Positions 1 through 16,055 of a DNA stretch of 64,000 bases are shown one piece after another (within the stretch, counting starts at the first letter, position 1; each line of letters starts with the position of its first letter). The stretch covers positions 254,902-318,901 of the forward strand of contig CP092081.1 in the NCBI GenBank assembly GCA_022226935.1. The letters are read 5' to 3'. The translations under genes and the position numbers were made by a program. The DNA comes from Nitrospira sp. (GTDB taxonomy: Bacteria; Nitrospirota; Nitrospiria; Nitrospirales; Nitrospiraceae). Under the pieces are notes generated by a model that was not told where the DNA came from, did not search any database, and saw only the letters and a list, made by a program, of their open reading frames with translations.

Positions 1-27
1 CATTCCCCTACGCGATGTCGGAGGCAT
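1..27 (-). CDS. Possible start of the next chemosensory gene (partial)
   Basis: The stop codon of the CheW-like gene (29-27) overlaps an ATG at 27-25 in a TGATG arrangement. From that ATG the frame stays open for nine codons to the window edge, reading MPPTSRRGM. This would fit a translationally coupled next gene in the operon, for example a CheB or CheR, but nothing of a domain is visible. A second ATG sits at position 3. Only the overlap geometry supports this call. Confidence 0.25.
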
Positions 28-503
28 CAAGCAAGGCGCTGTGATGCGACCCCTAAAGTTGCCAGGTTGATGAGAGGCAGTTGTTCGTCGCCTGCGACAC
101 AGGATCCGGCGATGTCCGGATCGAGGCCGTTTTGATACTGCACCTCTGAGCGCGGCACCACATGCAGCGATGGCACTTGAGCATCGATACAAATGGCAAG
201 AGGACCGTCGACATGTTTGACGATCAGGCACAGCGACTCCTCTTCGCCCACCGTGCGGTTGAATTTTGCCGCAAGATCGAAGACCGGAAGGCACGACTCC
301 TCATGGCGAACCAGCGAGGTGACAAACGGCGTGTCACTGGGAACCGCCGTGGTGCCGGGCCATGGCAGGACACCACCGATTTCCTCGGTCCTGGCGGCTA
401 GCCGTTTCCCGGCGACTGAAAACACCACCATATTCTGGACTCGTGCGTGCGTCGCACCCGACGCCGTACTGTGTGACTGCCTGCGTAATTGACTACGTAG
501 CAT
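27..503 (-). CDS. cheW: CheW-like adaptor protein
   Basis: A 158-residue single-domain CheW-like protein expected to bridge the receptor array and CheA in the cytoplasm. The beta-barrel pattern is recognisable: VVFSVAGKRLA at the start of the domain, a central 'LPVFDLAAKF' strand like the 'VIDLR' strand of CheW, and a closing 'LPLINLATL'. The first 24 residues are basic and polar with no domain character, so the true start may be the ATG at 431 (MVVFSVAGKRLA). It is the last complete gene of the cluster on this side and lies 15 bases below the preceding CheW-like gene. It diverges enough from canonical CheW that a dedicated scaffold role is possible. Confidence 0.8.
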   Translation of the reverse strand: MLRSQLRRQSHSTASGATHARVQNMVVFSVAGKRLAARTEEIGGVLPWPGTTAVPSDTPFVTSLVRHEESCLPVFDLAAKFNRTVGEEESLCLIVKHVDGPLAICIDAQVPSLHVVPRSEVQYQNGLDPDIAGSCVAGDEQLPLINLATLGVASQRLA

Positions 504-518
504 GCTGACCCTCGATGC

Positions 519-1091
519 TTAGCTCACAGGGCTCGTGGACATCGACACCGTCTCATCGACAGTCGCCACCGGCACATGCAGCCGGGAGTCACTCTCTCCA
601 GGCTTGCGTTCCGCAAATCGGATCGCAAACATCTCCAATGCGTGCGGTCTGAGCGGAAGCTCGAGCACCCAAAAAGGATTGGCGATCAGCGCGACGGAGG
701 AGGTGTCGACGAAAAATCCCAACAATCGCTCCCGTTCCTTGCCCCGGAACTGAGGGGGTAACGGATGAATCAGCGCGCGCTCGACGTCCAGCAGCCCGAG
801 CACCTTGTCGACCGCAAATGACCGCGACCGTTCTTCATTGCCGTACAGAATCAGTCTGGTATCGGGTGAAGATCCTTTGGAAACGATCTTGAGTCGAACG
901 GACAGATCGGTTCGTTCGTAATCCATACCGGCCCACGTGACGAGCCCGTCAGAGCCGGCCGAGGCGGGCATCACGATGCCGTGAACCCATTGCGCGGGAA
1001 AAGCTATGGAGGAGCCACCGATCAACGCGACAAGAAATCTGACCGCTTGGCCGCTCGATAGGGTGACTGCCCGTTGTCCGCGAAGACCCAT
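519..1091 (-). CDS. Divergent CheW-like domain protein
   Basis: A 190-residue protein with a weak CheW-like fold. 'VRFLVALIGGSSIAFPAQWVHG' corresponds to the first strands of CheW, where a ligand-free sensor adaptor recognises its receptor, and 'RLILYGNEERSRSFAVDKVLGL' corresponds to the second half. A GAAGGA ribosome-binding site precedes the ATG at 1091 by five bases. It sits between the hybrid CheA and another CheW, so it is almost certainly part of the signalling complex. The C-terminal 40 residues lack a recognisable motif. An alternative description is a FrzB/PilI-like coupling protein; the sequence alone does not separate these. Confidence 0.65.
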   Translation of the reverse strand: MGLRGQRAVTLSSGQAVRFLVALIGGSSIAFPAQWVHGIVMPASAGSDGLVTWAGMDYERTDLSVRLKIVSKGSSPDTRLILYGNEERSRSFAVDKVLGLLDVERALIHPLPPQFRGKERERLLGFFVDTSSVALIANPFWVLELPLRPHALEMFAIRFAERKPGESDSRLHVPVATVDETVSMSTSPVS

Positions 1092-1138
1092 ATGTGTCCT
1101 TCATTCTGCCAGGAACAGCAGGAGTCGGCAAAACCTTG

Positions 1139-4100
1139 TTATTTTTCGGCCCGCGCCTCGACACCGGTCCATTTGCGCACTTCTTGAATCAATGCCCGTT
1201 CTTCGACCGGTTTAGCAATGTAACCCGATGCGCCGACACTGACCGCCATCTGGCGATGCTTCTCGCCCGCCCGTGTCGTCATCACGAGAATCGGAATCGC
1301 CTGAGTTTGAGGTCTCGCCCGAAGGGCTTGGATGACTTCGTAGCCGTTCAACTTGGGCATTTCGAGATCGGTGATAATCAGTTGGTAGGCTTGCACCATC
1401 GCTTTGCGGCATCCCTCTTCGCCGTCCGTCGCCGTTTCGACGGTATACCCCGCGGCTTCGAGCATGCGGCCTACGAACTTTCTGATGCTGAGGGAATCGT
1501 CTATCAACAGGAGCGGTAGCGGCGAGGGGGCATCCGGCCGCACGTCGCTGTGTCCCGTCGCGTCTTCAATCAACGACGCCGCCGGAGCCTGCGCGATCGA
1601 CATGGGTTCATGGTACTCGCGCGCGGTCAGGCGGCTGACATCCAACACCAGCACTACACGTCCCTCGGGATCGATCGTGGCGCCACCGAACACGGAGCGT
1701 TCATACGGTTTCAGTCCACCCAGCGACTTGATGACGATTTCCTGCCGGCCCAGCAATTCGTCCACTGCACAACCGAGCGCGCCGGTCGACGTGCGCACGA
1801 TCACCACGGGAGACACTCCGTCTGTTATCCCCGCCTCGCGTCGAATGAGGCTGCCGAGCGGATAGACCTCGATGGCCTCGTCGCCAATTTGGGCTACCTG
1901 CCGATCACCCATCTGTTGCAGCGTTGACGCCGTCGACATGGTCACTTCGCGCACACTCGGCAGAGGAATCGCATAGCGTTCCTTTCCGACCCGCACGAGC
2001 AATGCCGTGGCGATCAACAGCGTGAGCGGCAAATGCATGGTGAACTTCGTGCCCTGCCCGCGCACCGATTCCACCTCGATATGCCCGTTCATCGTCTCGA
2101 TGACGCGCTTGACCACATCCATGCCGACGCCACGTCCCGCTTGGTCGCCGACGGCATCGGCGGTGGAGAATCCCGGCAAGAAGATAAACTTGATGACTTC
2201 GCTCTCGGGAAGGGTTTCAGCCACATCCTGCCTGACGAGTCCCAACTTGACGGCCTTCGCCTTGATCTTGGCGATGTCGAGCCCCGCGCCGTCGTCTTCG
2301 ACCTCGATCAGCACTGAATTGCCGCGATGCGCAGCATGCAGATAAATCGTGCCCGCCGCCGGCTTGCCTTGCGCCCGGCGGACGGCCGCCGGCTCAATGC
2401 CGTGGTAGACGGCGTTCCTGACTAAATGCACCAGGGGGTCCACCAAACGCTCGACGACACCGGTGTCGATTTCGGTGTGTTCACCGGAGGTGACCAAATT
2501 CACGTCTTTTCCCGTGGCCCTGGCCATTTCGCGGGCCGCACGACGAAAGCGGGTAAATGGAGTACCGATCGGCACCATACGGGCGCGAGCGATTTCGTCG
2601 CGCATGCCGAGCGTCAACTGCTGCAGTGATCCCATGTCGTCCTGAGCGCGGTGGATAGATCCTGACAGCTGCGACATGGATTCGCTGATGTCCGCCGTCA
2701 CCTCGCTGATGCGACGGGCCAGAATATTGAAGTCATCGTACTTATCGAATTCCAGACTGCCGAAGTCGCTGACACCGGGAAACCCTTGCGGCAGTGATTC
2801 TCCTTGGGCCGTAGGAGACGGTTGAAAGGAGAAGGTGTGTTTGTCCTCGAATGTCCGTACGGCATCCGTGAGGCGATTCTTATTGGCCAACACTTGAGTA
2901 GCCAGATGATCCAGCGTGCGCAACCGTTGTTCGAGACGCCCGCGATCGATGACCAATTCGCCGACCAGATTGAGCAGGCGTTCCAGCCGGTCGCGGCTGA
3001 CCCGGATTACCTCCCGCTCTTCTCCGGCTTTTCCCTCGCCGGCATTGGCCGGATCAGCCGTTTCAGGCTCATGCAGATCGAGAGGCACGACTGTTTCGAT
3101 CTGCGAGGGAACAGCAGACTCGATGGCCCCTGCCGTTGCGGCGTCACCCAATCCCTTCAATTCCTGAAGCGATGCCGCAAACCGCTGTCGCGTCCTGGTA
3201 AGCATCGAGGGGTCGCGCCGCATCAAGGCACGAATGACATCGATCGCGCGCAGGAGCACATCCGTATGGCCGGGAAGAAACTTCAGACGGCCCTCGCGAA
3301 CCGCGCCCATGAAATCTTCGATGTGGTGCGTGAGGTCACCGATTGATGGGAACCCGACGGTATAGGCAGACCCTTTCAACGTATGAGCCGTACGGAACAG
3401 TTGGTGAACGATGTCCGGGTTGGCCGCATCCTTGTCCACTCGCAACAAGTCGGTCTCGAGACTTTCCAAATATTCCTGCGCCTCGGGAGCGAAATACGAG
3501 ATAACTTCGGCATCCAGCATCGGAATGAGATAGGCTTCCGACAATTCGACCGGATGATGGGGCTCTGCAGACTGAACTGCCGGATCAGCGGGCATGGCCG
3601 CTGAAAGGCTCGCCTCCTCGGCAGACGCGCTTCTGCTTGGTGCGGAAGCCGCATCCGCTTGTTGGACCTGGGGCAGGCTTTGCTCGAGCTCGCGAAGCAT
3701 CGTCGTCATACAGGGCACGTCTTGCCGTAACCGGGACAGCTGCTGCGGGTCTCGCGCCATCAACGAACGCATCAGATCCACCGCATGCCGGATCGTGGCG
3801 ATCCACTGAGGCGTAATGGCGGCCTTGCCTTCGCGAACCGCGATCATGCAGCTTTCGATAGGGAAAGCCACATCCCCCACCACCTGACATCCGACGGTGT
3901 AAGCCGACCCCTTGAGCGTATGGGCGACACGATACAGTTGGTGAATGGTCTCGGCATCCGATAAGTTGAGGTCCAAACGCTGGAGAAGCGTCTGAATTGT
4001 ATTCAGATACTCCTCAGCTTCAGGAGCAAAGTAAGAAAGAACCTCTTCGTCCATCACAGGCAAAAGGTAGTCATCTGCCGGCTCGGTCGAGGTGGTGAGG

Positions 4101-4519
4101 GACTGTGCTGAGCCGTCCTCAGAAACTACCGGCAGGAATTGCGCGCACCGTTGCACGAACCCATCCACGAGAGAGGCATCTTCACCTTCGCCCCGCCCGA
4201 TCCGTGCGACCTGATGCCGGAAGGAGGCGACGATATCGCGGATCACCTCAAAGGCCACCGGCCACTGAGTCGGAGACATTTCCTGCACATGCTCCAGCGT
4301 CTCTTCGAGTAACGCCCCGAGTTGCCCCAGACCGGGAAACCCATACAACAGCGCCGCGCCTTTGAGCTTATGGCCGACGGCATGGAATTCGGCGACATCA
4401 CCCGGTTCAGGACGCGCGTTCCCTTCCGGGTGCAAGGCTTTCCAGAACCGTTCCATGTCGTCGCCGGCTTCGGCCACGAAAATGTCCAGCAGCTGGTCGC
4501 GATCAAAATCAGCGCTCAT
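1139..4519 (-). CDS. cheA: Hybrid CheA histidine kinase with three Hpt domains and a receiver
   Basis: This 1126-residue kinase should phosphorylate itself on Hpt histidines and pass the phosphate to receivers in the operon. Three Hpt domains carry conserved histidines at about H50 (HKLKGAALLYG), H200 and H379 (both HTLKGSAYTVG). Then come the dimerisation helices, a HATPase domain with the N box 'HLVRNAVYHG' and the G boxes 'DDGAGLD' and 'GRGVGMDVVK', a CheW-like regulatory domain, and a C-terminal receiver with 'LIDDS', the acceptor in 'IITDLEMPKLNG' and the lysine in 'YIAKP'. No P2 domain is apparent. Hpt2 and Hpt3 are clearly a duplication, each preceded by an 'EVxSYFAPEAxEYL' helix. The layout resembles PilL/ChpA and FrzE more than Escherichia coli CheA. 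It follows the MCP gene with a gap of about 50 bases containing a 6-bp hairpin (4537-4542 with 4553-4558). Confidence 0.95.
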   Translation of the reverse strand: MSADFDRDQLLDIFVAEAGDDMERFWKALHPEGNARPEPGDVAEFHAVGHKLKGAALLYGFPGLGQLGALLEETLEHVQEMSPTQWPVAFEVIRDIVASFRHQVARIGRGEGEDASLVDGFVQRCAQFLPVVSEDGSAQSLTTSTEPADDYLLPVMDEEVLSYFAPEAEEYLNTIQTLLQRLDLNLSDAETIHQLYRVAHTLKGSAYTVGCQVVGDVAFPIESCMIAVREGKAAITPQWIATIRHAVDLMRSLMARDPQQLSRLRQDVPCMTTMLRELEQSLPQVQQADAASAPSRSASAEEASLSAAMPADPAVQSAEPHHPVELSEAYLIPMLDAEVISYFAPEAQEYLESLETDLLRVDKDAANPDIVHQLFRTAHTLKGSAYTVGFPSIGDLTHHIEDFMGAVREGRLKFLPGHTDVLLRAIDVIRALMRRDPSMLTRTRQRFAASLQELKGLGDAATAGAIESAVPSQIETVVPLDLHEPETADPANAGEGKAGEEREVIRVSRDRLERLLNLVGELVIDRGRLEQRLRTLDHLATQVLANKNRLTDAVRTFEDKHTFSFQPSPTAQGESLPQGFPGVSDFGSLEFDKYDDFNILARRISEVTADISESMSQLSGSIHRAQDDMGSLQQLTLGMRDEIARARMVPIGTPFTRFRRAAREMARATGKDVNLVTSGEHTEIDTGVVERLVDPLVHLVRNAVYHGIEPAAVRRAQGKPAAGTIYLHAAHRGNSVLIEVEDDGAGLDIAKIKAKAVKLGLVRQDVAETLPESEVIKFIFLPGFSTADAVGDQAGRGVGMDVVKRVIETMNGHIEVESVRGQGTKFTMHLPLTLLIATALLVRVGKERYAIPLPSVREVTMSTASTLQQMGDRQVAQIGDEAIEVYPLGSLIRREAGITDGVSPVVIVRTSTGALGCAVDELLGRQEIVIKSLGGLKPYERSVFGGATIDPEGRVVLVLDVSRLTAREYHEPMSIAQAPAASLIEDATGHSDVRPDAPSPLPLLLIDDSLSIRKFVGRMLEAAGYTVETATDGEEGCRKAMVQAYQLIITDLEMPKLNGYEVIQALRARPQTQAIPILVMTTRAGEKHRQMAVSVGASGYIAKPVEERALIQEVRKWTGVEARAEK

Positions 4520-4571
4520 AGCCCTACGTCATATCCGAGCGGAGACTGGGCACCGCTCTTCTAGAATCCTG

Positions 4572-6446
4572 CTACGCCAGCTTGAACTGAGCGACTGAGG
4601 AGTTGAGGCCTTCGGCCAACTTGGCCATATCCTCGATCGTGAGTCGCGTGGAGTCGGTTTGCTTCTGCGTCGCCACGGCGCCGCCGGTGAACTCCTTAAT
4701 TGCGCGGCCGACTTTTTCCGTCGACGAAGTCTGCTCTGACGCCGCGCTGGCGATATTCTGGGCCAATTCGGAAGACCGTTTCGCAATGTCTGAAATTTCG
4801 GCGAACACGTCACCGGTCCGCAGAGCCGAGGCAGACCCGGCTTCCACCGCCTGTGTTTCATGTTCCATCGCGACCACCGCATCCTGCGTTTCCGTTTGAA
4901 TCACTTTGACGAGGTCCGCAATTTCGCGCGTGGCCTGCGTAGAACTTTCCGCCAGCTTTCTCACCTGGTCGGCGACGACGGCGAATCGCGCACCGGCCTC
5001 ACCGGCGCCCGCCGCCTCAATGGCGGCGTTGAGCGCGAGGAGGTTCGTCTGGTTGGCGATATCCCGAATGGTCGACACGATCTGGGAAATTTCGAGCGAA
5101 CGGTCACCGAGGCCCTTCACCTGCTTGGACATGCGTTGCACCGCCGAACGAATACTTTGCATGTCGCGCACCGTTTCCTGCACCGCGACGTTTCCGCGTT
5201 CTGTCGCCGACAACACTTGCTTCGCGGAATCTGAGGAGGCACCCGCCGTGCTGGCGACCTGACGCATACCGGCTGCGAGTTGTTCGACCGCGCCCAGCGT
5301 CCGGACTGATTCTTCCGCCTGCGCGCGGGCCGTTCCGGACATCTGTCCGGCCGAATCCCGGAGCGTACCGGCCGACTTGTTCACACGGTCGGCGGCTTCA
5401 CGCACCTGTTTCAACAACTGGCCGAATCGCGCGATCATGAGATTGAAACCGTCGGCCAGGTTTCCGAACATGTCGGCCGTCACCTCGCCTCGACGGGTCA
5501 AGTCTCCTTTACCCACTTCGGAGACGAGCACGAGGAATTGCATCAGGCGTTTCTGCATCAAGTCGCGTTCTTCCTCCGTCGACACGAGAGCCGTAATACG
5601 ATCGAGCATGGAGTTGAACGCCGTGGCCATCTGCCCCAGCTCATCGTGCGACTCGATTTTCGCACGCGCTTGCAGGTTGCCGCCGGCGGCCTGCGTGGCG
5701 ACATTGGCAATGTGGGTAATGTTTCGCGACAAGAAGGTCGCAAGGAGATATCCGACGAACAATCCCAGGGCCACGGCCACCAGACCACCGGCCACGAGAA
5801 TAAAGGTACCGCTGGCGGCGAGGGATTGAGCGTCGTCGTTCAGATCTTTCGCCACCGCCTCAATACTGGTGACCTGCTCGTTGTGGCGCTTCACGGCGTT
5901 TTCGAATGAAGGCGTCAAGTTCACCGTCAAGGCCAAGATACCGAGCGCCCGCATTTGCTCGGCTTGTACCGCGGACAGCGTGTTGCGATCGAAGCTATCG
6001 GCCATCGCGCTGAGGGCGCCGTCGGCCTCCTGGAAATATTTTTTGAGCGCCGGCTCAAACAGCGTAAGGTCCTTCATTTCGTCGCGGCCTGATCGAGAGA
6101 CCCGCAAGTTGGTGCTCTTGTAGTTGTTGACGGCTTTTTCGATTTCGGCTTTCAACGGAGGAAGCTTCGTGATTTCTTGGGCGAAGTCGCTTTGTTTCGT
6201 GGCAGAGGCGACGTCCAGCAAGATCTGGTGATGCTTGGTGAGCGCCGTTCCCATCTGCGCGAATTCGGCCAGCGGCACCGTATAGTCTCCGTACACGGTT
6301 TGCGACTGGGCACTGAGCTGGCGCAAGGTGAACACACCGACGCTGGCCATGATCATGATGATGAAACTCACCAGACCGAAACTGAGCATCAGCTTCGATC
6401 GTGTTTTCATGTCCTGAAATCGATTGGTAACGCCTTGCCCGATCAT
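4572..6446 (-). CDS. Methyl-accepting chemotaxis protein, PilJ-like
   Basis: A 624-residue inner-membrane chemoreceptor. TM1 spans about residues 19-40, a helical periplasmic region of the four-helix-bundle type runs to about 210, and TM2 spans about 213-238. A HAMP domain follows at 239-291, with a second HAMP-like segment around 305-345 ([10 protein letters not shown]). The long cytoplasmic coiled coil ends in a signalling tip reading '[20 protein letters not shown]', the standard CheA/CheW contact. Two HAMP-like units are typical of PilJ-type receptors linked to type IV pili. The gene lies between cheW and cheA, so it is probably the dedicated receptor of this cluster. The ligand is unknown. 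Confidence 0.93.
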
Positions 6447-6541
6447 GGTGCGCTCCTCCTTGTTACTGCGTTCTCAAGGTTCGATGGCCGGTCGCACAAT
6501 CCCTGGTCGCGCGGGCCCACGAACCGTCATAGCTCTGTCCA

Positions 6542-7087
6542 TTACACGACCGACAATACCGCACTCCCCCCGTCCACCTGCGCGAAGACTTGCGGGACTT
6601 CCAGCACGCCTCCCAGGCGGTGATCCAGACGGAGCACGGCCGACACACAGGGTCTCGCGCCAGCCGGCCCCGCCTGCATGGCAGGCAACAGATGCTCGCG
6701 GGCCACCGTATGAATTTCAGGAACGTGGTCGACCAATACTCCCACCTGCCTTGCGCCGTGACGTATCACCACCGCAAAGGGCAGTGCCGTGTTGCTCACC
6801 GACAAACCGAGGCTCCCGCGCAAATCGACCAGCGTGATCACCGTTCCCCTGAGGTTGGTTACTCCCGTCAGGTAGCTGGGCATGCTGGGCACAGCCGTCA
6901 CCGCTTCCACTTCGAACACTTCACTGACATGACGGAGATCAATGGCGAAGAGTTCTCCTCCCAGCGTCAATACGCACATGCGCAGCACGCCTTCAGTCGG
7001 TGGGGCGGAAGACCTCGATGTACCGGAGGATCCCTGGGTCGGAGAGGAAGCGGAAGGCTGAGACTGGATGATTGGAACGTCGTTCAT
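6542..7087 (-). CDS. cheW: CheW coupling protein
   Basis: A canonical CheW domain of about 140 residues follows a 35-residue serine/proline-rich N-terminus. Diagnostic strands are 'LTLGGELFAIDLRHVSEVFE', 'LTGVTNLRGTVITLVDLR' and 'HTVAREHLLPAM'. It should link the upstream MCP-type receptor to the hybrid CheA. It is the most typical of the three CheW-like proteins here. It ends about 95 bases before the MCP start and lies three bases below the single-receiver gene, so the genes are likely co-transcribed. Confidence 0.93.
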   Translation of the reverse strand: MNDVPIIQSQPSASSPTQGSSGTSRSSAPPTEGVLRMCVLTLGGELFAIDLRHVSEVFEVEAVTAVPSMPSYLTGVTNLRGTVITLVDLRGSLGLSVSNTALPFAVVIRHGARQVGVLVDHVPEIHTVAREHLLPAMQAGPAGARPCVSAVLRLDHRLGGVLEVPQVFAQVDGGSAVLSVV

Positions 7088-7090
7088 GAG

Positions 7091-7453
7091 TTAGTTCAGT
7101 GCCCGTTTCACGGCTGCGACCAAATCTTCTGCCTTGAACGGCTTGACCACGTACCCGTTCGCGCCCTGCTGCTGCCCCCAAAACTTATCGCTTTCCTGCC
7201 CCTTGGAGGTGCACAGCACGATCGGAATGCCTTTGAACCGGTCATCACTCTTCAGGTCGCGGCACGCTTGGAATCCGTTACGCCCGGGCATCACCACGTC
7301 CAACACGATCAGATCCGGTTTATCCAGCGCCAACTTATCTTCAAGCTTGTCGGTATTCGGATAGGACACGACCGTATGATTGGCAGACTTGAGATACCCT
7401 TCGATCAACTGCAGTTCCGCGTACGAATCATCGACCACAACAATTTTGCTCAT
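7091..7453 (-). CDS. Single-domain response regulator, PilH/CheY-like
   Basis: A 120-residue stand-alone receiver with acidic pair D8/D9, predicted phosphoacceptor D52 in 'LIVLDVVMPGRNG', T82/S83, and K104 in 'YVVKPF'. The segment 'SDKFWGQQQGANGYVVKPF' is characteristic of the PilH/PilG group of twitching regulators rather than flagellar CheY. It lies directly upstream of cheW and is probably a target or phosphate sink of the hybrid CheA. The AAGGGGGG ribosome-binding site before the ATG is strong. No output domain is present. Confidence 0.93.
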   Translation of the reverse strand: MSKIVVVDDSYAELQLIEGYLKSANHTVVSYPNTDKLEDKLALDKPDLIVLDVVMPGRNGFQACRDLKSDDRFKGIPIVLCTSKGQESDKFWGQQQGANGYVVKPFKAEDLVAAVKRALN

Positions 7454-7516
7454 GAATCCATCCCCCCTTAAACCGCTAAAATGTGCGACAGACAGGTGCC
7501 GAATCCGTCGCCGTGC

Positions 7517-8251
7517 CTACTTCATAGGAATGACAATGCTGATGGCGCCGGCCAAGTCGCCCTCATGCCAGCCTTCTTTCTTGGCGCCCGTGACATCGCG
7601 CTCGCCTTTCGGATTCCCATGGCAGCTGAGGCACGTGGTCGCGGCATATTCCGGATCCATCATGCGCAGCACCGGTCTTCCGTCCAACATGGTGGCCTTG
7701 CTGTACGGCTGTCCCTTGGGATGGCGTGTGTCCGCAAAAATTCTCAACACTTCGGCTTCGAAATCATCGGGCCGGTTTCCCGGAAACCGATAGTCGATGC
7801 TCGTCAGCTTCACGCGAATGCCGGTCTTGCGGTAAAACCGCTCGCCGGACTTGCGCGCAAACACGGCGGGAATGATGCCTTTGAAGCCGACGCCCTGCTT
7901 GTTGATCACGGGCTGCGCCTCATCGATGACTTCTTTTTCCGACTCCACCATGGCAAGGAACAACGGCGCTTGCGGGACGGTGGCCGGACGACTCAGATCG
8001 ATCTTGGTCGCTTTGCGGAACCGGTCGATGACCTGGTTGGCGACGAAGTCCCCCGTTATCCCCTTATCGCCCTTACTGGCATCATTGATCGTCGCCTGGT
8101 TTTCCGAGAGCACCCCGCGTCCGACTTGCACCAATTTGATAAGCAATTCAGCCGTTTCCACTTCGGTATTCGCCGACGCGGCAACGGGCATGCCCACACA
8201 GGCCACCGCCAGGACAGCCACCACGGTTCTGCTGAGAAAATGATTTGCCAT
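7517..8251 (-). CDS. Secreted DUF3365 family c-type haem sensor-like protein
   Basis: A 244-residue exported protein with a signal peptide (MANHFLSRTVV... ending ASANTE). It has a single c-type haem motif 'CLSCHG' near the C-terminus, which places it in the DUF3365/Tll0287-like family: haem proteins with a PAS-like fold thought to sense redox or small molecules in the periplasm. The start is set at 8251 because a strong AGGAGGAGGGGG site precedes that ATG and the signal peptide begins there; the frame stays open 17 codons further upstream. The gene is the first of the chemosensory operon, 63 bases above the receiver gene, which suggests it feeds redox information into that system (inference). 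Confidence 0.88.
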   Translation of the reverse strand: MANHFLSRTVVAVLAVACVGMPVAASANTEVETAELLIKLVQVGRGVLSENQATINDASKGDKGITGDFVANQVIDRFRKATKIDLSRPATVPQAPLFLAMVESEKEVIDEAQPVINKQGVGFKGIIPAVFARKSGERFYRKTGIRVKLTSIDYRFPGNRPDDFEAEVLRIFADTRHPKGQPYSKATMLDGRPVLRMMDPEYAATTCLSCHGNPKGERDVTGAKKEGWHEGDLAGAISIVIPMK

Positions 8252-8324
8252 GCCCCCTCCTCCTGCCGATCTCGATGTCGCTCGTGAGGAATTCGCTCGC
8301 ACGAACTGCGCTAAACCTCTGTCA

Positions 8325-8352
8325 AAGATAGCGCAAAATCAGCGATTGACAA
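8325..8352 (-). promoter_or_regulatory. Sigma70-like promoter of the haem sensor and chemosensory operon
   Basis: On the minus strand, a -35-like TTGTCA (8352-8347) is followed after 16 bases by a -10-like TATCTT (8330-8325). Transcription would start near 8318, about 65 bases before the ATG at 8251. It is the best promoter-like match in the gap and faces the DUF3365 gene. Confidence 0.5.
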
Positions 8353-8659
8353 TTTTTGACTTCGTGACTGTTTCGTCAGCCCCTGCAGCCCCGGCCTGCC
8401 TCGTGCACGTTCGGTGCCAAACAAAACAATTACTTAGAATCTTCGAAAAGGAAGGAGTCGAACGAAATGAAGTCGGCGATTTTGCGGATGATTAGATGTG
8501 GACGATCCACTATACCCACTATGATCAGTCAGCCTGAGCAGGGTTCTCGATTGTTCAACATTTCGAGCGAAGCGCCAAAGTTTGGTCGATTGACGGTCGA
8601 AGTGTCAAAATTACATGCAGCCGAAACGGCAGGAAACTGTCAGACGAAATCTGATCAGG
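8353..8659. other. Intergenic gap upstream of the chemosensory promoter
   Basis: About 300 bases lie between the end of cobQ (8660) and the promoter. No coding region with family character, strong hairpin with a T run, or repeat was seen. The plus-strand reading frame that crosses it continues antisense into cobQ and looks like a shadow. Confidence 0.5.
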
Positions 8660-10216
8660 TTATCGGAGCCATGCCAAAACGGGAGCAAGATCAAGGTGCC
8701 GATCGATGTGATCAGCCCAGCGGTCCATTGCGTTCAGACGCGTTTCATTCACGCGTTGAGAGTCTTCTAGAGAAACCGCTGATAACCCTTTTCGGCTGCG
8801 CAGCCGGTTCAGCCAAGCCCGGCGAAAAGCTGGTTCATCGAAAAGACCATGGACATAGGTTCCCCACACCAACCCATCATGCCGCACCGCGCCATCCTGA
8901 CATTCCTCATCGCGCAAGATTTCTTTGCTGTCGGTTTTCAGACTCGCCTGCCTGCGCAGGAGCTGGAAACAGGGCCGAAGTCCCGCGCGATCCGTTCTGC
9001 CCATGTGGATGAGGTACCCCCGAACGGCCAATGTCGTCGATTCCTCAATATGCAGAGCCTGCCCCTGAACCTGCTCCGTAATCTTGTCTCGCGCCAACAC
9101 GGTGGTGACCGGCAACATTCCGAATCCGTTATCGTGACCGCCCGTCTCCACTCCATCGGGATCGGCAATTGATTGCCCGAGCATTTGATAGCCGCCGCAG
9201 ATGCCTACCAATTCCCCGCCACGCCGCACATGGTCCTGCAACAACCTTTCAAATCCCCTCTCGCGCAGATAGGCAAGATCGGACAAGGTCGTCTTCGAAC
9301 CGGGAAGAATCATGGCGTTCGCGCCCAGAGCCTCTTCGGGTGTTGCAACATATCGCAACGCGACATCCATTTCTTGAGCGAGCGCATTAAAATCGGTGAA
9401 GTTACTCATGTGCGGTAGGAGCAGCACCGCAACATTGACACGATCAGCTGTGAAAGGAATCTTCGCCCGGGCGTCTACGTCGAGACTGTCTTCTTGATCC
9501 AGTGCGAGATCGCGAAGGTACGGCAAGAGCCCGAGTACCGGGATTCCTGTGCGTGCCGTGAGAAACCGGACGCCATCGTCGAACAGCGTTCTGTCCCCTC
9601 GAAATTTGTTGATCACGATCCCACAGACGCGGGCTCGTTCCTCCGCGGCAATCAGGTCGAGGGTCCCGACGATTTGGGCGAAGACCCCGCCTCGGTCGAT
9701 GTCACCCACCAAGACCACTCGGGCATCCGCCAGTTCCACCGTGGTCCAGTTGACGAGATCACGATCGCGCAAGTTTACCTCGGCAGCGCTCCCGGCCCCC
9801 TCGATCACAATTACCTCATACTGTGATGCGAGCCGTTCATAACTCTCCCGCACCGCGCGCAACAATTGTGAATCCCGCCCCCGCGTGAAATAGGCACGCG
9901 CATCCAATGTCGCAAAGACTTTCCCCTGCACCACAACTTGGGATCTGGCGTTAGATTCCGGCTTGAGCAAGATGGGATTCATGTCCACATGGGGAGCAAT
10001 CCCGCAGGCCTCGGCTTGTAACGCCTGCGCACGTCCGATCTCGCCGCCTTCCAGTGTGGCGAATGAATTGAGCGACATGTTCTGCGCCTTGAAGGGAGCC
10101 ACTCTGATTCCGGCGCGATGCAGCAGGCGGCAGAGGCCCGCCGTCACCAGGCTTTTCCCGACATCGGAGCCGGTCCCGAGAATCGCAATAGCTTTGGCGC
10201 GAGAGAGATGGGACAT
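8660..10216 (-). CDS. cobQ: Cobyric acid synthase
   Basis: A 518-residue glutamine-dependent amidotransferase (CobQ/CbiP) that amidates side chains b, d, e and g of adenosylcobyrinic acid a,c-diamide to give adenosylcobyric acid. The N-terminal synthetase half has the dethiobiotin-synthetase-like nucleotide loop 'GTGSDVGKS' (residues 14-22) and 'PFKAQNMSLNS'. The C-terminal glutaminase half has the nucleophile C340 in 'VGICGGYQML' and a histidine in 'GTYVHGLFD'. The length is normal for the family. It is the last gene of the cobalamin operon, 20 bases below cbiZ. Confidence 0.96.
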   Translation of the reverse strand: MSHLSRAKAIAILGTGSDVGKSLVTAGLCRLLHRAGIRVAPFKAQNMSLNSFATLEGGEIGRAQALQAEACGIAPHVDMNPILLKPESNARSQVVVQGKVFATLDARAYFTRGRDSQLLRAVRESYERLASQYEVIVIEGAGSAAEVNLRDRDLVNWTTVELADARVVLVGDIDRGGVFAQIVGTLDLIAAEERARVCGIVINKFRGDRTLFDDGVRFLTARTGIPVLGLLPYLRDLALDQEDSLDVDARAKIPFTADRVNVAVLLLPHMSNFTDFNALAQEMDVALRYVATPEEALGANAMILPGSKTTLSDLAYLRERGFERLLQDHVRRGGELVGICGGYQMLGQSIADPDGVETGGHDNGFGMLPVTTVLARDKITEQVQGQALHIEESTTLAVRGYLIHMGRTDRAGLRPCFQLLRRQASLKTDSKEILRDEECQDGAVRHDGLVWGTYVHGLFDEPAFRRAWLNRLRSRKGLSAVSLEDSQRVNETRLNAMDRWADHIDRHLDLAPVLAWLR

Positions 10217-10236
10217 AGAAATGCTTGGCGTTCAGG

Positions 10237-10965
10237 TCAATGCTTATCGGCCCACTGTGCTGCGAGGGCCAAGCCTTGCAGGAGACACTCAGCCACGACG
10301 CGTCCGATCATCGAACCGATCTCGGTATGCGTCCCCGCATACGGATGCCAGGTACCATGACCTCGCAGCGCCGAGGCGACAACCACCGCATCCGTTCCCG
10401 TTCCGGTCGCACCGGCCAGACCAGTCCAGCTGGGAACGGCATGATCGCGCAATACGCCGGTTTTGCTCTCCGTCGCCACCTGCACCGCGCCGACCATGGC
10501 AGGAACCGCGAGACAGCCGTTTGTCACCAGGATGAGGTTGATCGTTCCCGCTGTCGCACCGATCCGCTCGCCTTGCCGTCGAAGAACGGGCTCCCCGGCC
10601 CGCACGGCATTCGTGACGCCCACGGTGGCAAACCCCTCCACCCACGTTCCGTCTCGTTCCTCTCGATGGGTCACGAGCTGCGTCATGGGAACCGCGGTCA
10701 TGAGCCCGACACAATCCGAGTCTACGCCGAGCGTCTCCGCAAGCCGCCTGAGGTAGCGGGATGGATGTGCCCAGTTTCGACCTGCTGTGTCCGCCCCTAA
10801 CGGATGTGAAGGCACCTGATGATTCAGGATAAAACGAGTCGTGCGAAGCCCTCCCCCTCGTGGTGCCGAGGACAACACGCGCATGCGTGCCCCCAGATCC
10901 ACGATCAACGTATCGTCGGCGACCCAATGCCTCGTCGAGACGCGGTGTGCACGAAACGCGGTCAT
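10237..10965 (-). CDS. cbiZ: Adenosylcobinamide amidohydrolase
   Basis: A 242-residue CbiZ-family protein. CbiZ removes the aminopropanol arm of adenosylcobinamide to give adenosylcobyric acid, letting cells salvage scavenged corrinoids. Family features visible are 'SSAPRGGGLRTTRFILNHQV', 'VGLMTAVPMTQL' and 'VGVTNAVRAGEP', plus the conserved tail 'RGHGTWHPYAGTHTEIGSMIGR'. The start overlaps the end of cobD by four bases, so translation is probably coupled. Its presence next to cobU is notable, because CobU offers a parallel route for adenosylcobinamide. Confidence 0.92.
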   Translation of the reverse strand: MTAFRAHRVSTRHWVADDTLIVDLGARMRVLSSAPRGGGLRTTRFILNHQVPSHPLGADTAGRNWAHPSRYLRRLAETLGVDSDCVGLMTAVPMTQLVTHREERDGTWVEGFATVGVTNAVRAGEPVLRRQGERIGATAGTINLILVTNGCLAVPAMVGAVQVATESKTGVLRDHAVPSWTGLAGATGTGTDAVVVASALRGHGTWHPYAGTHTEIGSMIGRVVAECLLQGLALAAQWADKH

Positions 10966-12080
10966 GTGCGACTCTTCCCGATGATTTCCGATAAGGAGCT
11001 GAGGAGGCGATCATTGTCGGCGCGCGAGCGAATGGCCAGACGGATTGAACGATCGTTGAGCCCCGGCACCTGCGAACAATCTCGAACCAAAATCCCTTGC
11101 CGTCGAAGGGCCGACACCACGCGCATCGCCTTGAGTCTGGCCGGCAATTCCAGAAGCAGGAAATTGGCTGCGGAAGGGAACGTCGAACAACCTGGTAATC
11201 GCATCAATCCTTGCACACACCGCGATCGCTCTTGCTCCATGAAGCGGAGGCTCCGCCGGCTGTGTCGCTTGTCCTCCAAGGCCAGTTGAGCGGCTCGCTG
11301 AGCCAACATATTCACCGACCAAGGAGGCTGATGCGCGCCCAACCGTTTCATGACCTTGGGATTCCCCACCGCATAACCCACACGGAGTCCGGGCAACCCG
11401 TAAAACTTGGTGAAGCTTCGCAAGACGAGGGTCTGTGCAGGCAGGTCTTCCGGTAAAATCGAGACCTCCTCGCAATATTCGGCAAAGGTTTCATCCACGA
11501 GGCACCATTGCCCAAGACGAGCCGCCCGGCGAGCCCATTTCCTGACCATATCGGCATCGCAGACCTGGCCGGTCGGGCTGTTGGGATTGCACAGCATCAC
11601 CGCATCCACAGGGGGCCTGCTGTTTCTTGTGTTCCGGAACTTGCCCAGATCGTTCATGATCTGCTCAAGCGGCGGCCGGTAGCCATCGTCACGTCGAGCC
11701 ATGATGCTGCTGATCTGCCCACCGACGCGGGCCATCGCCGCAGCATATTCAGAGAAGGTCGGACCAATAACGAGGAGATGCCTGATCTGCAAGGCCTCGG
11801 GAAGCAGGTGGATCAATTCGGTCGATCCATTGCCGATCAGAAACTCTTCCGGTGAACGGTCCCAAAACGTCGCCAGTGCCTGCCGCAGATCCCGACAGGC
11901 CGGATCTGGATAATGGCTCAGCAGTTCACTCCCCTCCTTGATCGCTCGCCACGCTGCAGCGGACGGCCCCAGAGGATTGATACTGGCGCTGAAATCCAGC
12001 AATTGCCGGACATCTCGTTTCAATTCACGGGCCGCCGCGTAGACATCACCGCCATGAACCGGGCGTTTCATGATACCCAT
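10962..12080 (-). CDS. cobD: Threonine-phosphate decarboxylase
   Basis: A 372-residue class I/II PLP-dependent enzyme related to histidinol-phosphate aminotransferase. CobD decarboxylates L-threonine O-3-phosphate to (R)-1-amino-2-propanol O-2-phosphate, the linker joined to cobyric acid by CbiB. Visible features are 'HGGDVYAAAREL', 'LDFSASINPLGPS', 'NPNSPTG' for substrate binding and the PLP lysine K225 in 'SFTKFYGLPGLRVGY'. The gene overlaps cbiB at its start by 13 bases and cbiZ at its end by four. Its place beside cbiB separates it from HisC. Confidence 0.93.
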   Translation of the reverse strand: MGIMKRPVHGGDVYAAARELKRDVRQLLDFSASINPLGPSAAAWRAIKEGSELLSHYPDPACRDLRQALATFWDRSPEEFLIGNGSTELIHLLPEALQIRHLLVIGPTFSEYAAAMARVGGQISSIMARRDDGYRPPLEQIMNDLGKFRNTRNSRPPVDAVMLCNPNSPTGQVCDADMVRKWARRAARLGQWCLVDETFAEYCEEVSILPEDLPAQTLVLRSFTKFYGLPGLRVGYAVGNPKVMKRLGAHQPPWSVNMLAQRAAQLALEDKRHSRRSLRFMEQERSRCVQGLMRLPGCSTFPSAANFLLLELPARLKAMRVVSALRRQGILVRDCSQVPGLNDRSIRLAIRSRADNDRLLSSLSEIIGKSRT

Positions 12081-13024
12081 AGGGAGAGCAAGGCGAAAAA
12101 CAGACCCAGAGCATAGGTGACGATCATGATGCGAGAGGCCTGGCGGATATGCTCTGGAGTGACATCGGCGGTGCCGTCACCGATGGTCGGAGCGTCATGC
12201 GCCACACCATCATAATAGTTTGTTCCACCGAGTTGGACGCCCAAGGCGCCGGCCATCGCTGCTTCCGGCTGCCCACTGTTCGGACTGGCGTGTTTATCCC
12301 CGTCTCGGTGGAGCATGTACCAGCTTTCATGAATCCGATGCCATTGGCCCGTTGAGAGGCCTGCAGCCAGCGCGATGAAGCCGCCCGCCAATCGTGCCGG
12401 AACCCAATTCAGCACATCGTCGAGTTTGGCGGAGGCCCAACCGAAGTGTTCATAGCGGGTATCCAGATGACCGATCATGGAGTCGAGCGTATTGACCGCC
12501 TTATAGGCCAGCGCCAACGGCGCCCCCCCCAGGGACAAATAGACCAGCGGCGCAATGATCCCGTCGGACGTACTTTCCGCGATGGTTTCCACCGTAGCTC
12601 GGGACACGCCAGATTCTGTCAACGTCGCAGTATCACGGCCGACAATCATCGCCACGGCTTGCCGGGCACCAGCCAGATTGCCTGCCGCCAATTCACGGAG
12701 CACTGCCTGAACGTGATCGAACAGATCGCGCCCTGCCAGCGTCGTGTACGCCAATCCCACGCCGACCACCTGCCCAAGCAGAGGAGCGATTGCCGTGGCT
12801 TGCGTAATCGTCCAACTGGCAGCGGCATACGCTGCGGCCGGTAAGCCGATAGCGAGGCAGCCACCCGCAATCTGAAGAGCCTGCTCGCTCTGACAGATGC
12901 GGCGAACACGACCATCCACCCAGGCGATGACGGCCCCCATGCCCTTCACCGGATGGGGCAACCAGCGAGGATCGCCTGCCGCGACATCCAGCGCCGCGGC
13001 GACTGCCAATTCCACGCCGGTCAT
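12068..13024 (-). CDS. cbiB: Adenosylcobinamide-phosphate synthase
   Basis: A 318-residue integral membrane protein of the CbiB/CobD family. It joins adenosylcobyric acid to aminopropanol phosphate. It begins with the family signature 'AAALDVAAGDPRWLPHPVKG' and has several hydrophobic segments plus the conserved cytoplasmic stretch 'DGDKHASPNSGQPEAAMAGA'. The length is typical. Its ATG overlaps the stop of cobS in an ATGA arrangement, and its end overlaps cobD. Together with CobD it supplies the de novo branch of nucleotide-loop assembly. Confidence 0.94.
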   Translation of the reverse strand: MTGVELAVAAALDVAAGDPRWLPHPVKGMGAVIAWVDGRVRRICQSEQALQIAGGCLAIGLPAAAYAAASWTITQATAIAPLLGQVVGVGLAYTTLAGRDLFDHVQAVLRELAAGNLAGARQAVAMIVGRDTATLTESGVSRATVETIAESTSDGIIAPLVYLSLGGAPLALAYKAVNTLDSMIGHLDTRYEHFGWASAKLDDVLNWVPARLAGGFIALAAGLSTGQWHRIHESWYMLHRDGDKHASPNSGQPEAAMAGALGVQLGGTNYYDGVAHDAPTIGDGTADVTPEHIRQASRIMIVTYALGLFFALLSLWVS

Positions 13025-13794
13025 GGGGCCATCACCAACGCCGGAATCAATAAGAGAAAGAGAATCTCGACCGCTTCATTCGTGGCTCCGAGCACATCTC
13101 CGGTCACGCCTCCAAGCAGGGTCAGGCACCGTTGCCTGATCAGGACCAGCAACAGGACGCCCATGCCCATGGTCGCGACCGTCACCCTTCCACCCAAGAC
13201 CATCATCAACGCAACAGCCAATACGAGACTCGAAAGAATCACATGTTGCCAAGATAAATGCGTGAGAAAGGAGGCCGCCAACCCGCCATCGCGTCTGGCT
13301 GAAGGAGAGGCCCATGCCAGGCTGACCATCGCCCAGCGACCCAGTGCCGGCATACAGAGCAGTACCGGCAGCCGCAGCGTGGCAGGCAGTGCGAGTAATC
13401 CCGCATATCGGAGCAACAAGGAAAGACACAAGGCGGTCGCGCCGAATGCACCCACTCGCGGATCGCGCATGATCCGTAAACGATCCTCAACGGTTCGGCC
13501 ACCGGCCAATCCGTCGACCGTATCCGCGAGGCCATCCTGATGCAACCCTCGCGTCAGCAGCACGAGCAGAACAATCAGCAAGGCATTGCCGACCTCCGCT
13601 GCCAGCCATGAGCGCAAGCCCACGTCGGCCAGCGCCACCAGACCGCCGATCAGGAGACCGACGGTGGAATACCAGGCCATCGATGCGGCCAACTCCTGCG
13701 CCGTCGGTGCGTGATGAGTTCGGCTGATCGGGATCGCCGTCAGAAAATGCCAGGCGAACACAAACGGTCTGGTCATGGCGGCCATCTCAGTCAC
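13021..13794 (-). CDS. cobS: Adenosylcobinamide-GDP ribazoletransferase (cobalamin synthase)
   Basis: A 257-residue membrane enzyme that condenses adenosylcobinamide-GDP with alpha-ribazole (phosphate). The family signature is clear: 'RGLHQDGLADTVDGLAGG' followed by 'RIMRDPRVGAFG' holds the acidic residues thought to bind metal. Six or so hydrophobic segments follow. It overlaps cobT by eight bases and cbiB by four, as expected in a compact operon. Confidence 0.95.
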   Translation of the reverse strand: MTEMAAMTRPFVFAWHFLTAIPISRTHHAPTAQELAASMAWYSTVGLLIGGLVALADVGLRSWLAAEVGNALLIVLLVLLTRGLHQDGLADTVDGLAGGRTVEDRLRIMRDPRVGAFGATALCLSLLLRYAGLLALPATLRLPVLLCMPALGRWAMVSLAWASPSARRDGGLAASFLTHLSWQHVILSSLVLAVALMMVLGGRVTVATMGMGVLLLVLIRQRCLTLLGGVTGDVLGATNEAVEILFLLLIPALVMAP

Positions 13795-14839
13795 GTTCCG
13801 TCACACCGGCTTCATCGAACGTCGCCATCTCAGTGAGAATTTTGATCGAAGCCTGCACGAGCCCCATCCCCAGGCAAGCCCCCGTCCCCTCACCCAGGCG
13901 GAGATCCAGATCAAGCAGCGGTTTAAGGGCCAAGCATTCCAGAATCGCCTGATGCCCCTGCTCAACCGAGCGGTGCGATGCGATCAAGTAGTCGCGACAC
14001 AAGGGCTGCAACCCCACGGCAATCAAGGCGGCGGCACCGGCAATAAATCCATCCAGCACCACCGGCACGCGTGCCGCCGCGGCACCGAGCATGAGCCCGG
14101 CCAGCCCGGCGATTTCCAGTCCACCCACCTTGGCCAGCACATCAAGCGCATCACCTTTATCGGGCCGATGCCGATCCAGCGCCTGCTCGATAATCGAAAC
14201 CTTGCGGGCGTGACCGGCTTCGTCGATGCCGGTTCCACGGCCAGTCACGTCAGCCACCGGTCGACCGGTCATGACGGCCGTCATGGCCGCACTCGGGGTC
14301 GTGTTGCCGATGCCCATTTCACCGGTGCCGATAAGCCCGATGCCCTCCCGGGCCGCGGCCGTCGCCAGATCGATTCCAACCTGTAATGCCTGTGCGGCCT
14401 GTGCGCGGGTCATCGCCGGTTCGCGCAACAGATTGTTCGTCCCCTGCATGATTTTCTTCTGAATGAGTCTCGGCACTGATCCGAAATCGTAGGCGACACC
14501 GATATCCACGACTCGAACGTCGACCCCGGTATGTCGCGCCAGCACATTGACCCCGGCGCCGCCCCGGAGGAAATTCAGAACCATCTGCGCCGTGACTTCG
14601 CTGGGATAGGCGCTCACACCTTCGTTCGCCACGCCATGATCGGCCGCAAAGGTGAAGATGACCCCGCGCGGTATATTCGGCTTCACGTCGCCGGTGATCC
14701 TGGCGTAGTGCACGGCCAACTCTTCCAGACGCCCGAGACTGCCCAGCGGCTTGGTGAGCCGATCGAGGCGTCCTTGAGCTTTCACCGCACTCTTACCATT
14801 CACCGGCTGAATCAGGCCCACCACCTCATCGAGCGTCAT
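13787..14839 (-). CDS. cobT: Nicotinate-nucleotide-dimethylbenzimidazole phosphoribosyltransferase
   Basis: A 350-residue CobT that makes alpha-ribazole phosphate from nicotinate mononucleotide and 5,6-dimethylbenzimidazole or a related base. Conserved segments are 'LTKPLGSLGRLEELA', 'FAADHGV' and 'IGTGEMGIGNTTPSAAM'. The catalytic glutamate falls at E317 in 'RLGEGTGA', the same position as in the Salmonella enzyme. The length matches the family. It lies 12 bases below cobU. The lower ligand base cannot be told from sequence. Confidence 0.95.
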   Translation of the reverse strand: MTLDEVVGLIQPVNGKSAVKAQGRLDRLTKPLGSLGRLEELAVHYARITGDVKPNIPRGVIFTFAADHGVANEGVSAYPSEVTAQMVLNFLRGGAGVNVLARHTGVDVRVVDIGVAYDFGSVPRLIQKKIMQGTNNLLREPAMTRAQAAQALQVGIDLATAAAREGIGLIGTGEMGIGNTTPSAAMTAVMTGRPVADVTGRGTGIDEAGHARKVSIIEQALDRHRPDKGDALDVLAKVGGLEIAGLAGLMLGAAAARVPVVLDGFIAGAAALIAVGLQPLCRDYLIASHRSVEQGHQAILECLALKPLLDLDLRLGEGTGACLGMGLVQASIKILTEMATFDEAGVTERD

Positions 14840-14851
14840 CGTCCCTCCTAT

Positions 14852-15409
14852 CTATTTGAGCCTCAGCGACTGACCGCATATGACAACATAGACCTCGTCA
14901 GCCGAGGCGGCGATCTGCTGGTTGACCCGGCCGGCGACATCGCGGAAGGCGCGCGCGCTGCGACTGGTCGGCACCAAGCCGAATCCCAGTTCGTTACTGA
15001 CCAGCACGACACGCGCCGGACTACGTCGAATCGCTTGCACGAGTTCATCGACTCGCGCACTTATGTCTGCGTCGGATATACGGCGGCCGCAGACATTGCT
15101 CAGCCAGAGTGTCAGGCAATCGACGACGATAGTGCGATAGCCCGATCCTTCCGAACGAAACCAGCCCGTTAGATCACGCGGCACTTCAGCCGTCACCCAA
15201 TCGGCGGAACGTGTTGCGCGGTGCCGCGCGATACGCGCCTGCATTTCCTTATCCAGCCCCTGGCCTGTTGCAACGAAGGCCTTCGGTGCTCGGCTGCCCG
15301 CCCGCTCCAATGCCGCCTGACTTTTCCCTGAGGAGGCCCCTCCCAGTACCAGAATGAGACGTGACCGTGAACGCCGGGTCTTTCTCGTCGGTTTACTTGG
15401 TCGAGGCAT
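14852..15409 (-). CDS. cobU: Bifunctional adenosylcobinamide kinase / guanylyltransferase
   Basis: A 185-residue CobU/CobP protein. It phosphorylates adenosylcobinamide and transfers GMP to the phosphate. The P-loop 'GGASSGKSQ', 'VDCLTLWLSN' and 'VSNELGFGLVPTSRSARAF' are standard for the family. The start is put at the ATG at 15409 (MPRPSKPTRK), 33 bases inside the longest frame, because the P-loop then lies at the usual distance from the N-terminus. It still overlaps the end of the PduO-type gene by 17 bases. Confidence 0.93.
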   Translation of the reverse strand: MPRPSKPTRKTRRSRSRLILVLGGASSGKSQAALERAGSRAPKAFVATGQGLDKEMQARIARHRATRSADWVTAEVPRDLTGWFRSEGSGYRTIVVDCLTLWLSNVCGRRISDADISARVDELVQAIRRSPARVVLVSNELGFGLVPTSRSARAFRDVAGRVNQQIAASADEVYVVICGQSLRLK

Positions 15410-15989: not shown

Positions 15990-16055
15990 GCCCTGATCCT
16001 TTCACTCCCGGCCAGCGTTCCTGGCTCACGCGGCACCAGGTCTGCCGGAAACAGT

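Follow-up and report, generated by a model that had tools for sequence, protein, structure and literature searches.

A stand-alone haem protein heads a conserved chemosensory operon in Nitrospira and may serve as its dispensable accessory input

A gene for a stand-alone haem protein of the sCache_heme (Tll0287-like, DUF3365) family opens a chemosensory operon in the window, by which we mean the whole 64,000-nucleotide stretch of Nitrospira sp. DNA that was analysed. The operon position of this gene and its link to MCP signalling are well supported. With about even confidence, we regard its product as a soluble periplasmic c-type haem sensor that acts as a separable accessory input subunit. The operon is present in named organisms, and one genus provides a natural deletion series. 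Within nitrifying communities, NO could plausibly act as a signal; a defined NO or redox input to their behaviour would therefore be directly testable.

The haem gene and its product

The haem gene occupies positions 8251-7517 of the minus strand and encodes a protein of 244 amino acids. The ATG at 8251 was taken as the start; the GTG at 8302 is merely the longest mechanical start. A ribosome-binding site, AGGAGGAGGG (8255..8264, minus strand), was read from the sequence just 5′ of this ATG and is similar across the genus alignment. The protein matched Pfam PF11845 at E 2.6e-25 (90 bits; cut-off 24.1) and contains a single haem-c attachment site, CLSCH (C207, C210 and H211; 7619..7633, minus strand), which reads CLSCHG in the sequence. 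The DUF3365 gene with this motif, as reported in the preliminary description, is thus real. The three residues of the site were invariant in 33 of 33 aligned proteins, and so were Q113, N117, K124 and P128, which lie near the column of a missing Cys (see below) and could face the haem. The protein is probably secreted or periplasmic, with a hydrophobic helix at residues 3-20 and an AxA-like site at its N-terminus, both judged by eye.

An AlphaFold model based on the alignment of 33 proteins had a mean pLDDT of 84.5. The closest solved structure was Tll0287 (5b82; Z 13.7; 144 residues aligned at rmsd 2.7), followed by a row at Z 7.3, and Foldseek placed all matches except 5b82 at E > 0.001. A phmmer search of the PDB with the window protein gave no match, nor did a PDB search with one paralog; profile searches of the PDB reached Tll0287 at E 0.019 and 4.6e-07.

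The chemosensory cluster

The haem gene ends at 7517, and 63 bases separate it from the ATG (7453) of a single-domain receiver gene (7091..7453, minus strand; PF00072, E 6.9e-24) whose product is PilH-like by eye. Coordinates and Pfam assignments agree with the earlier statement that the receiver stands at this distance and that the rest of the cluster comes next. The scan listed no terminator-like site between the haem gene and the receiver (7517 to 7453), a point on which the proposed operon had been made to depend. The genes that follow, all on the minus strand, encode a CheW (6542..7087; PF01584, E 5.2e-29), an MCP with a four-helix-bundle sensor, HAMP and signalling domains (4572..6446; 4HB_MCP_1 E 1.1e-17, HAMP 2.4e-11, MCPsignal 9.8e-40), a CheA hybrid kinase in which Pfam finds three Hpt stretches, HATPase, CheW and a C-terminal receiver (1139..4519), a CheW-like protein (519..1091; CheW 22.7 bits, slightly below the cut-off of 23.5) and a further CheW (27..503; PF01584, E 3.5e-12). 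Past the window edge, as read in locus L039, the cluster continues with a long-tailed receiver whose tail resembles a coiled coil, an Hpt-like gene (E 0.00071, below the Pfam cut-off) and, at the end, an HD-GYP-like gene (HD_5 E 3.3e-28; HD-GYP motif by eye).

The MCP had been described as PilJ-type. This assignment was ruled out: at E <= 0.001, Pfam gave 4HB_MCP_1, HAMP and MCPsignal only. There was no CheR match in the cluster; the genome has four, with none between 250 and 264 kb. Surface movement had been put forward as the output, and the genome does hold two PilT matches above the cut-off, but the terminal HD-GYP-like gene points equally to c-di-GMP. The receiver was 77-100% identical over the family loci read by tblastn, above the surrounding kinase or CheW genes.

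Conserved promoter elements upstream of the haem gene

A promoter scan of positions 1-16000 returned one sigma-70-like site, TTGTCA-N16-TATCTT (8352-8325, minus strand; score 9 of 12). Shuffled sequences averaged 4.6 +/- 2.2 such sites, and the lone match carries no significance. A sigma-54-like element (TGGCAC-N6-TGCA, containing GG-N10-GC) is present at 8404..8419 on the minus strand and may form a -24/-12 promoter. Both elements are kept across the genus: as evidence of conservation and not of probability, given that the shuffles preserved base composition only and that the genomes are related, TTGTCA-N16/17-TATCTT was found in 23/23 upstream regions (the window and 22 relatives) at 96-102 bases 5′ of the ATG (shuffle mean 0), and GGCAC-N6-TGC was likewise found in 23/23 at 156-169 bases 5′ of the ATG (shuffle mean 0.17 of 23). 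The sigma-70-like site, which the preliminary description called the only good promoter in the area, is thus conserved in every relative, but it is not the sole promoter candidate, because the sigma-54-like site is equally conserved.

Further blocks conserved in the genus lie 5′ of the promoters at window positions 8400-8600. One of them, AAACTTTG[GA]C[GA]C, was found in 23/23 regions, and the upstream stretch reading GTCCACATCTAATCATCCGCAAAATCGCCGACTTCAT in the window also falls within the blocks of the alignment. They may be sites for an activator of the sigma-54-like promoter, or they may belong to a short reading frame.

Conservation of the gene order

The order haem gene-receiver-CheW-MCP-CheA was kept in all 22 genus relatives whose loci were read, and in 19/20 loci from other genera that had been chosen by their haem gene. 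The exception is a second copy in G044 (L086), which is located away from any such cluster. Among 80 genome_contigs loci, the receiver ortholog lay <=400 bases from the haem gene in 62 and was not found in 13; three loci were too short, and the remaining two had no haem-gene match in this count, one of them (L208) showing the end of a haem gene followed by the receiver. In three of the 13 receiver-less loci (L183, L185, L190), CheW and MCP come directly after the haem gene. The cluster is also present in Nitrospira moscoviensis (L151) and Ca. Nitrospira defluvii (L142). Among 245 sampled genomes of the phylum, MCP orthologs at E <= 1e-100 were confined to the Nitrospira family (57 genomes). 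The link to MCP signalling is supported because no terminator-like site separates the haem gene from the receiver and the family as a whole retains the neighbourhood, as the preliminary description had supposed; further adjacencies of stand-alone haem genes and MCPs occur elsewhere (see below).

CobQ and/or the gene 5′ of CobQ also adjoin the haem gene across the genus and in most other genera read. In L091 and L110, the order haem gene-receiver-CheW-MCP was found without a match to the two cobalamin-side queries.

In 118 genomes of the family, orthologs were counted by hand (haem gene at E <= 1e-70, MCP at E <= 1e-150): 71 genomes had both genes, five had the haem gene only, 19 had the MCP only and 23 had neither. 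In three of the haem-only genomes (G063, G075, G104), the receiver adjoins the haem gene and the MCP is split or cut by contig ends. In G064 (L114), the haem gene is followed by no more than a receiver piece of 25 residues and by weak matches to the long-tailed receiver, the reverse of the losses described below for genus g6, and G047 carries a different subtype of haem gene. Of the 19 MCP-only genomes, 17 represent the g6 losses, including G093 with its broken copy; in G045, two overlapping pieces of the haem gene lie next to the receiver, and in G031, where the contig is short, there was no haem match within 525 bases 5′ of the receiver.

Natural loss of the haem gene in genus g6

The haem gene is missing before the receiver in 16 g6 loci (L093-L108), of which L102 retains a short piece. 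In L109, also of g6, it is interrupted by two stop codons, and L121 is one further locus without it. All 18 loci retain receiver, CheW, MCP and CheA, although the MCP of one haem-less locus (L100, genome G095) has a stop codon inside. Eroded pieces of the haem gene were seen by eye in L099, L102 and L103, that of L102 also by tblastn.

A promoter block of TTGCCA-like and TACACT-like boxes, a pattern drawn from the alignment of g6 loci, lies 841-853 bases 5′ of the receiver in 7/7 loci with the haem gene and 843 bases in the broken L109. In the 17 loci that lost the haem gene, the block lies 100-416 bases 5′ of the receiver. Because the promoter block remains before the receiver after the loss, the haem gene evidently lies downstream of the promoter and ahead of the remaining genes of the unit. 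These findings indicate that the haem gene belongs to the operon yet is dispensable, the pathway being kept without it. An obligatory role of the haem protein is not supported, since the cluster persists in 18 loci where the haem gene is lost or broken.

A reference tree was built from the receiver, the cytoplasmic part of the MCP and CheA, with midpoint rooting and with L060, L111 and L119 excluded because CheA was missing. No haem gene was seen in L111 or L119, and neither enters any of the counts. G084 (L125), which keeps the haem gene, nests among the losers on this tree; as read from the midpoint-rooted topology, there were at least five separate losses if regain is impossible.

The clear losses lie in g6, where a match to AMO (PF02461) was found in 16/26 genomes. 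A clean tie of the loss to ammonia oxidation was rejected: the AMO-positive g6 genomes G084, G097 and G117 keep the haem gene. AMO-positive genomes of g10, e.g. G067 and G078, also retain it, and six haem-less g6 genomes (G099, G101, G103, G109, G111, G115) have no AMO match, which incomplete bins may explain in some cases.

The haem pocket and the likely signal

One invariant extra Cys was present in 6/6 Tll0287-type proteins from plasmid records. We take it to be the axial ligand that a 2026 preprint describes both in Tll0287 and in the P. putida protein, where it is C59 (PMC12889525). In the window protein, this column is V121 (7889..7891, minus strand; alignment A4), and the 13 Nitrospira-family proteins in the alignment with these six have V or I there. 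In alignment A1 (33 proteins), only L110 had a Cys past residue 35 outside CXXCH, at position 108, about 13 residues before the V121 column. The homologs from the order of Geobacter sp. UBA698 have no Cys in the axial-Cys region, and the L203 protein has one near its C-terminus. A tree built from 39 proteins put the 25 long stand-alone members on one side of a branch (86/81) and the six Cys-type proteins on another (93/88); neither branch was starred, and long branches meet in this tree.

In the preprint, stand-alone sCache_heme members are given a redox role on the basis of one Cys-bearing example, and fused members are assigned to NO sensing on the basis of one Cys-less example that binds NO tightly (PMC12889525). 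The NO-sensing subgroup is defined by fusion to a signalling module, lack of an axial Cys, slow NO release and lack of a stable oxy complex. The window protein shares the lack of an axial Cys with this subgroup, but it is a stand-alone protein of 244 amino acids; of the Tll0287-type redox subgroup it lacks the defining axial Cys outside CXXCH. The two criteria of the preprint thus disagree here, because the operon protein is both stand-alone and Cys-less. Since the axial Cys is absent, the equation of stand-alone with redox may not cover the proteins of Nitrospira and of the Geobacter order, and they are a likely exception to the rule that a stand-alone sCache_heme protein is a Cys-ligated redox protein (PMC12889525). 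Our bet is that the haem pocket, rather than the stand-alone state, decides function. The preliminary description had named redox state first as the signal; because the redox-type axial Cys is absent, NO or another ligand is at least as likely.

Divergence of the MCP sensor domain

The sensor domain of the MCP (residues 34-205) was 26-63% identical to its counterparts in other genera, a range that leaves out L073 (82%) and L119 (22%, a different MCP). The cytoplasmic part was 74-85% and the haem protein 54-72% identical. The ratio of sensor-domain to reference branch lengths was 0.91 in haem-less lineages, 0.70 in g6 lineages with the gene, 0.97 in others with the gene and 0.44 in the window's genus. 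Over all branches, a shift in sensor-domain rate after haem loss was not significant (1921/5000 label shuffles as large); within g6, a difference of 0.237 toward relaxation was not significant either (1220/5000 shuffles). Relaxed evolution of the sensor domain after loss, which would favour docking, was therefore dropped. Because the sensor domain diverges faster than the haem protein and its rate does not change significantly, there is no coevolution signal for the direct docking on the MCP that had been proposed. Simple drift of four-helix-bundle domains may be an alternative account of the fast divergence.

Stand-alone relatives beside other MCPs

In G039, the gene for a related stand-alone protein is flanked by two MCP genes, one of which encodes a fused Tll0287-like domain. 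The homolog of Geobacter sp. UBA698 has an MCP directly next downstream. In the order of this organism, which we take to be Geobacterales, 7/141 genomes carry the long stand-alone type, and in five of these seven an MCP is adjacent or one small ORF away. The MCP is directly downstream in L204, L222 and L223. L226 has one directly upstream on the same strand and a second downstream past one small ORF, and in L227 the MCP is upstream on the other strand past one small mechanical ORF; for L224 and L225, no MCP was among the neighbours listed. The holder genomes (4.0-4.7 Mb) have 18-49 MCP matches each. If each genome is assumed to have 4,000 genes, an MCP would be the next neighbour of about 2% of randomly chosen genes, with the reservation that the seven holders are not fully independent.

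These proteins may form a third sCache_heme subgroup (about 240 amino acids, stand-alone, Cys-less; Nitrospirota and the Geobacter order) that binds NO in the periplasm and signals in trans to MCPs with differing sensor domains. We offer this split haem receptor tentatively and consider it, taken as a whole, unlikely. If it were true, one haem module could be plugged into chemosensory pathways and unplugged from them, Nitrospira nitrite oxidisers could sense NO from neighbouring nitrifiers and denitrifiers, and repeated losses of the module would have occurred in a lineage with ammonia oxidisers among its members.

Possible roles of the haem protein

On the accessory-sensor reading, which we prefer, the haem gene and the chemosensory genes would share one transcript. 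The open sixth position of the haem may bind a diatomic ligand, most likely NO, or switch with redox state. Either event would alter the haem protein, which could then affect the MCP in the periplasm or some other partner. Through the MCP-CheW-CheA hybrid, the signal would reach the receivers and perhaps also the HD-GYP-like enzyme, with a change in pili or c-di-GMP as the result. As an accessory, the haem input can be dropped by lineages that keep the pathway.

The haem protein might instead be a periplasmic electron carrier, a peroxide or NO scavenger or a redox buffer that is merely co-expressed with the pathway and sends it no signal. We consider this somewhat unlikely. It would fit the persistence of the pathway after haem-gene loss, the lack of a coevolution signal with the MCP sensor domain, the L086 copy located away from the cluster and the redox-like appearance of the stand-alone member tested in the preprint (PMC12889525). 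However, relatives have other MCPs as neighbours both in the order of Geobacter sp. UBA698 and, within Nitrospiraceae, in a second cluster, the haem gene stays by CheW and MCP where the receiver is missing, and the axial Cys that marks redox-type members is absent.

A reading in which the MCP makes direct contact with the haem protein in the periplasm, reads whether the haem is oxidised or reduced, and so steers type IV pilus movement is improbable: the MCP is not PilJ-type and its sensor domain diverges fast, the cluster has no CheR match, and an HD-GYP-like gene closes it. Its attractions are the conserved gene order, the PilT genes in the genome and the general resemblance of the PilH-like receiver and multi-Hpt CheA to pilus systems. 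It is very improbable that the haem gene stands between cobalamin and chemosensory genes by inherited order alone. The CobQ side also stays linked, and gene order by itself cannot assign the haem gene to a side; but the stretch that separates the haem gene from CobQ carries conserved promoters, the promoter block remains before the receiver after haem-gene loss, L091 and L110 keep the order from haem gene to MCP without cobalamin-side matches, and relatives in another phylum adjoin MCPs.

Comparison with known systems

In the Pil-Chp (type IV pilus) system of Pseudomonas, a single receiver, CheW, MCP and a multi-Hpt CheA with a receiver are clustered. The window cluster likewise has a single receiver, CheW, MCP and a multi-Hpt CheA with a C-terminal receiver. 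It differs in its 4HB rather than PilJ MCP, in having no PilK/CheR match, in its additional CheW-like, long-tailed receiver, Hpt-like and HD-GYP-like genes, and in the haem protein at its head. Maltose-binding protein is a periplasmic binding protein that docks on the four-helix-bundle receptor Tar. Both pairs combine a soluble sensor with a four-helix-bundle receptor, but in the Nitrospira pair the sensor is a haem-c Cache protein and the contact is a proposed one. No receptor is known to use a separate haem protein as its periplasmic input, and among open-licence literature we found no title or abstract opening that describes a haem-headed Nitrospira chemosensory operon.

Tll0287 of Thermosynechococcus (5b82) resembles the window protein in being stand-alone, with one CXXCH haem c and the same fold and Pfam family. 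Unlike the Nitrospira proteins, which have V or I in the column and lie on a separate tree branch, the Tll0287-type proteins have the extra Cys (6/6), and they are shorter than the proteins of about 240 amino acids from Nitrospira and the Geobacter order. The fused sCache_heme proteins (the HAMP protein of P. azotoformans; GSU0582 and GSU0935 of G. sulfurreducens, 3b47/3b42) have periplasmic haem-c sensor domains without an axial Cys, a lack that the window protein shares. The structural match to 3b47 and 3b42 is weaker than that to 5b82 (Z 5.9 and 5.4). Fused domains serve HAMP proteins or MCPs and NO binding is reported (PMC12889525; PMC8396549), and GSU0935 is able to use an axial Met (PMC8396549). 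In contrast to these, the window domain is a separate protein, and its MCP has a four-helix-bundle domain of its own.

Other haem genes of the family

The window genome (4,229,538 bases, single contig) has eight PF11845 matches in all and contains both fused and stand-alone Tll0287-like forms. At about 1.147 Mb of the same genome (L068:8104-9789), an MCP with a fused Tll0287-like domain lies in what seems by eye to be a second chemotaxis cluster. In L120, L206 and L207, the haem gene is in two overlapping frames, which reflects a frameshift or a sequencing error. In Nitrospiraceae bacterium SURF_66 (L203:829-2481), a stand-alone sCache_heme gene is located one ORF before a NosL-like gene, which hints at a nitrogen-oxide setting. 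At L117:2594-4024, a stand-alone relative with 49% identity lies in tail-to-tail orientation to the gene of a sigma-54 activator response regulator, and L118 appears similar by eye.
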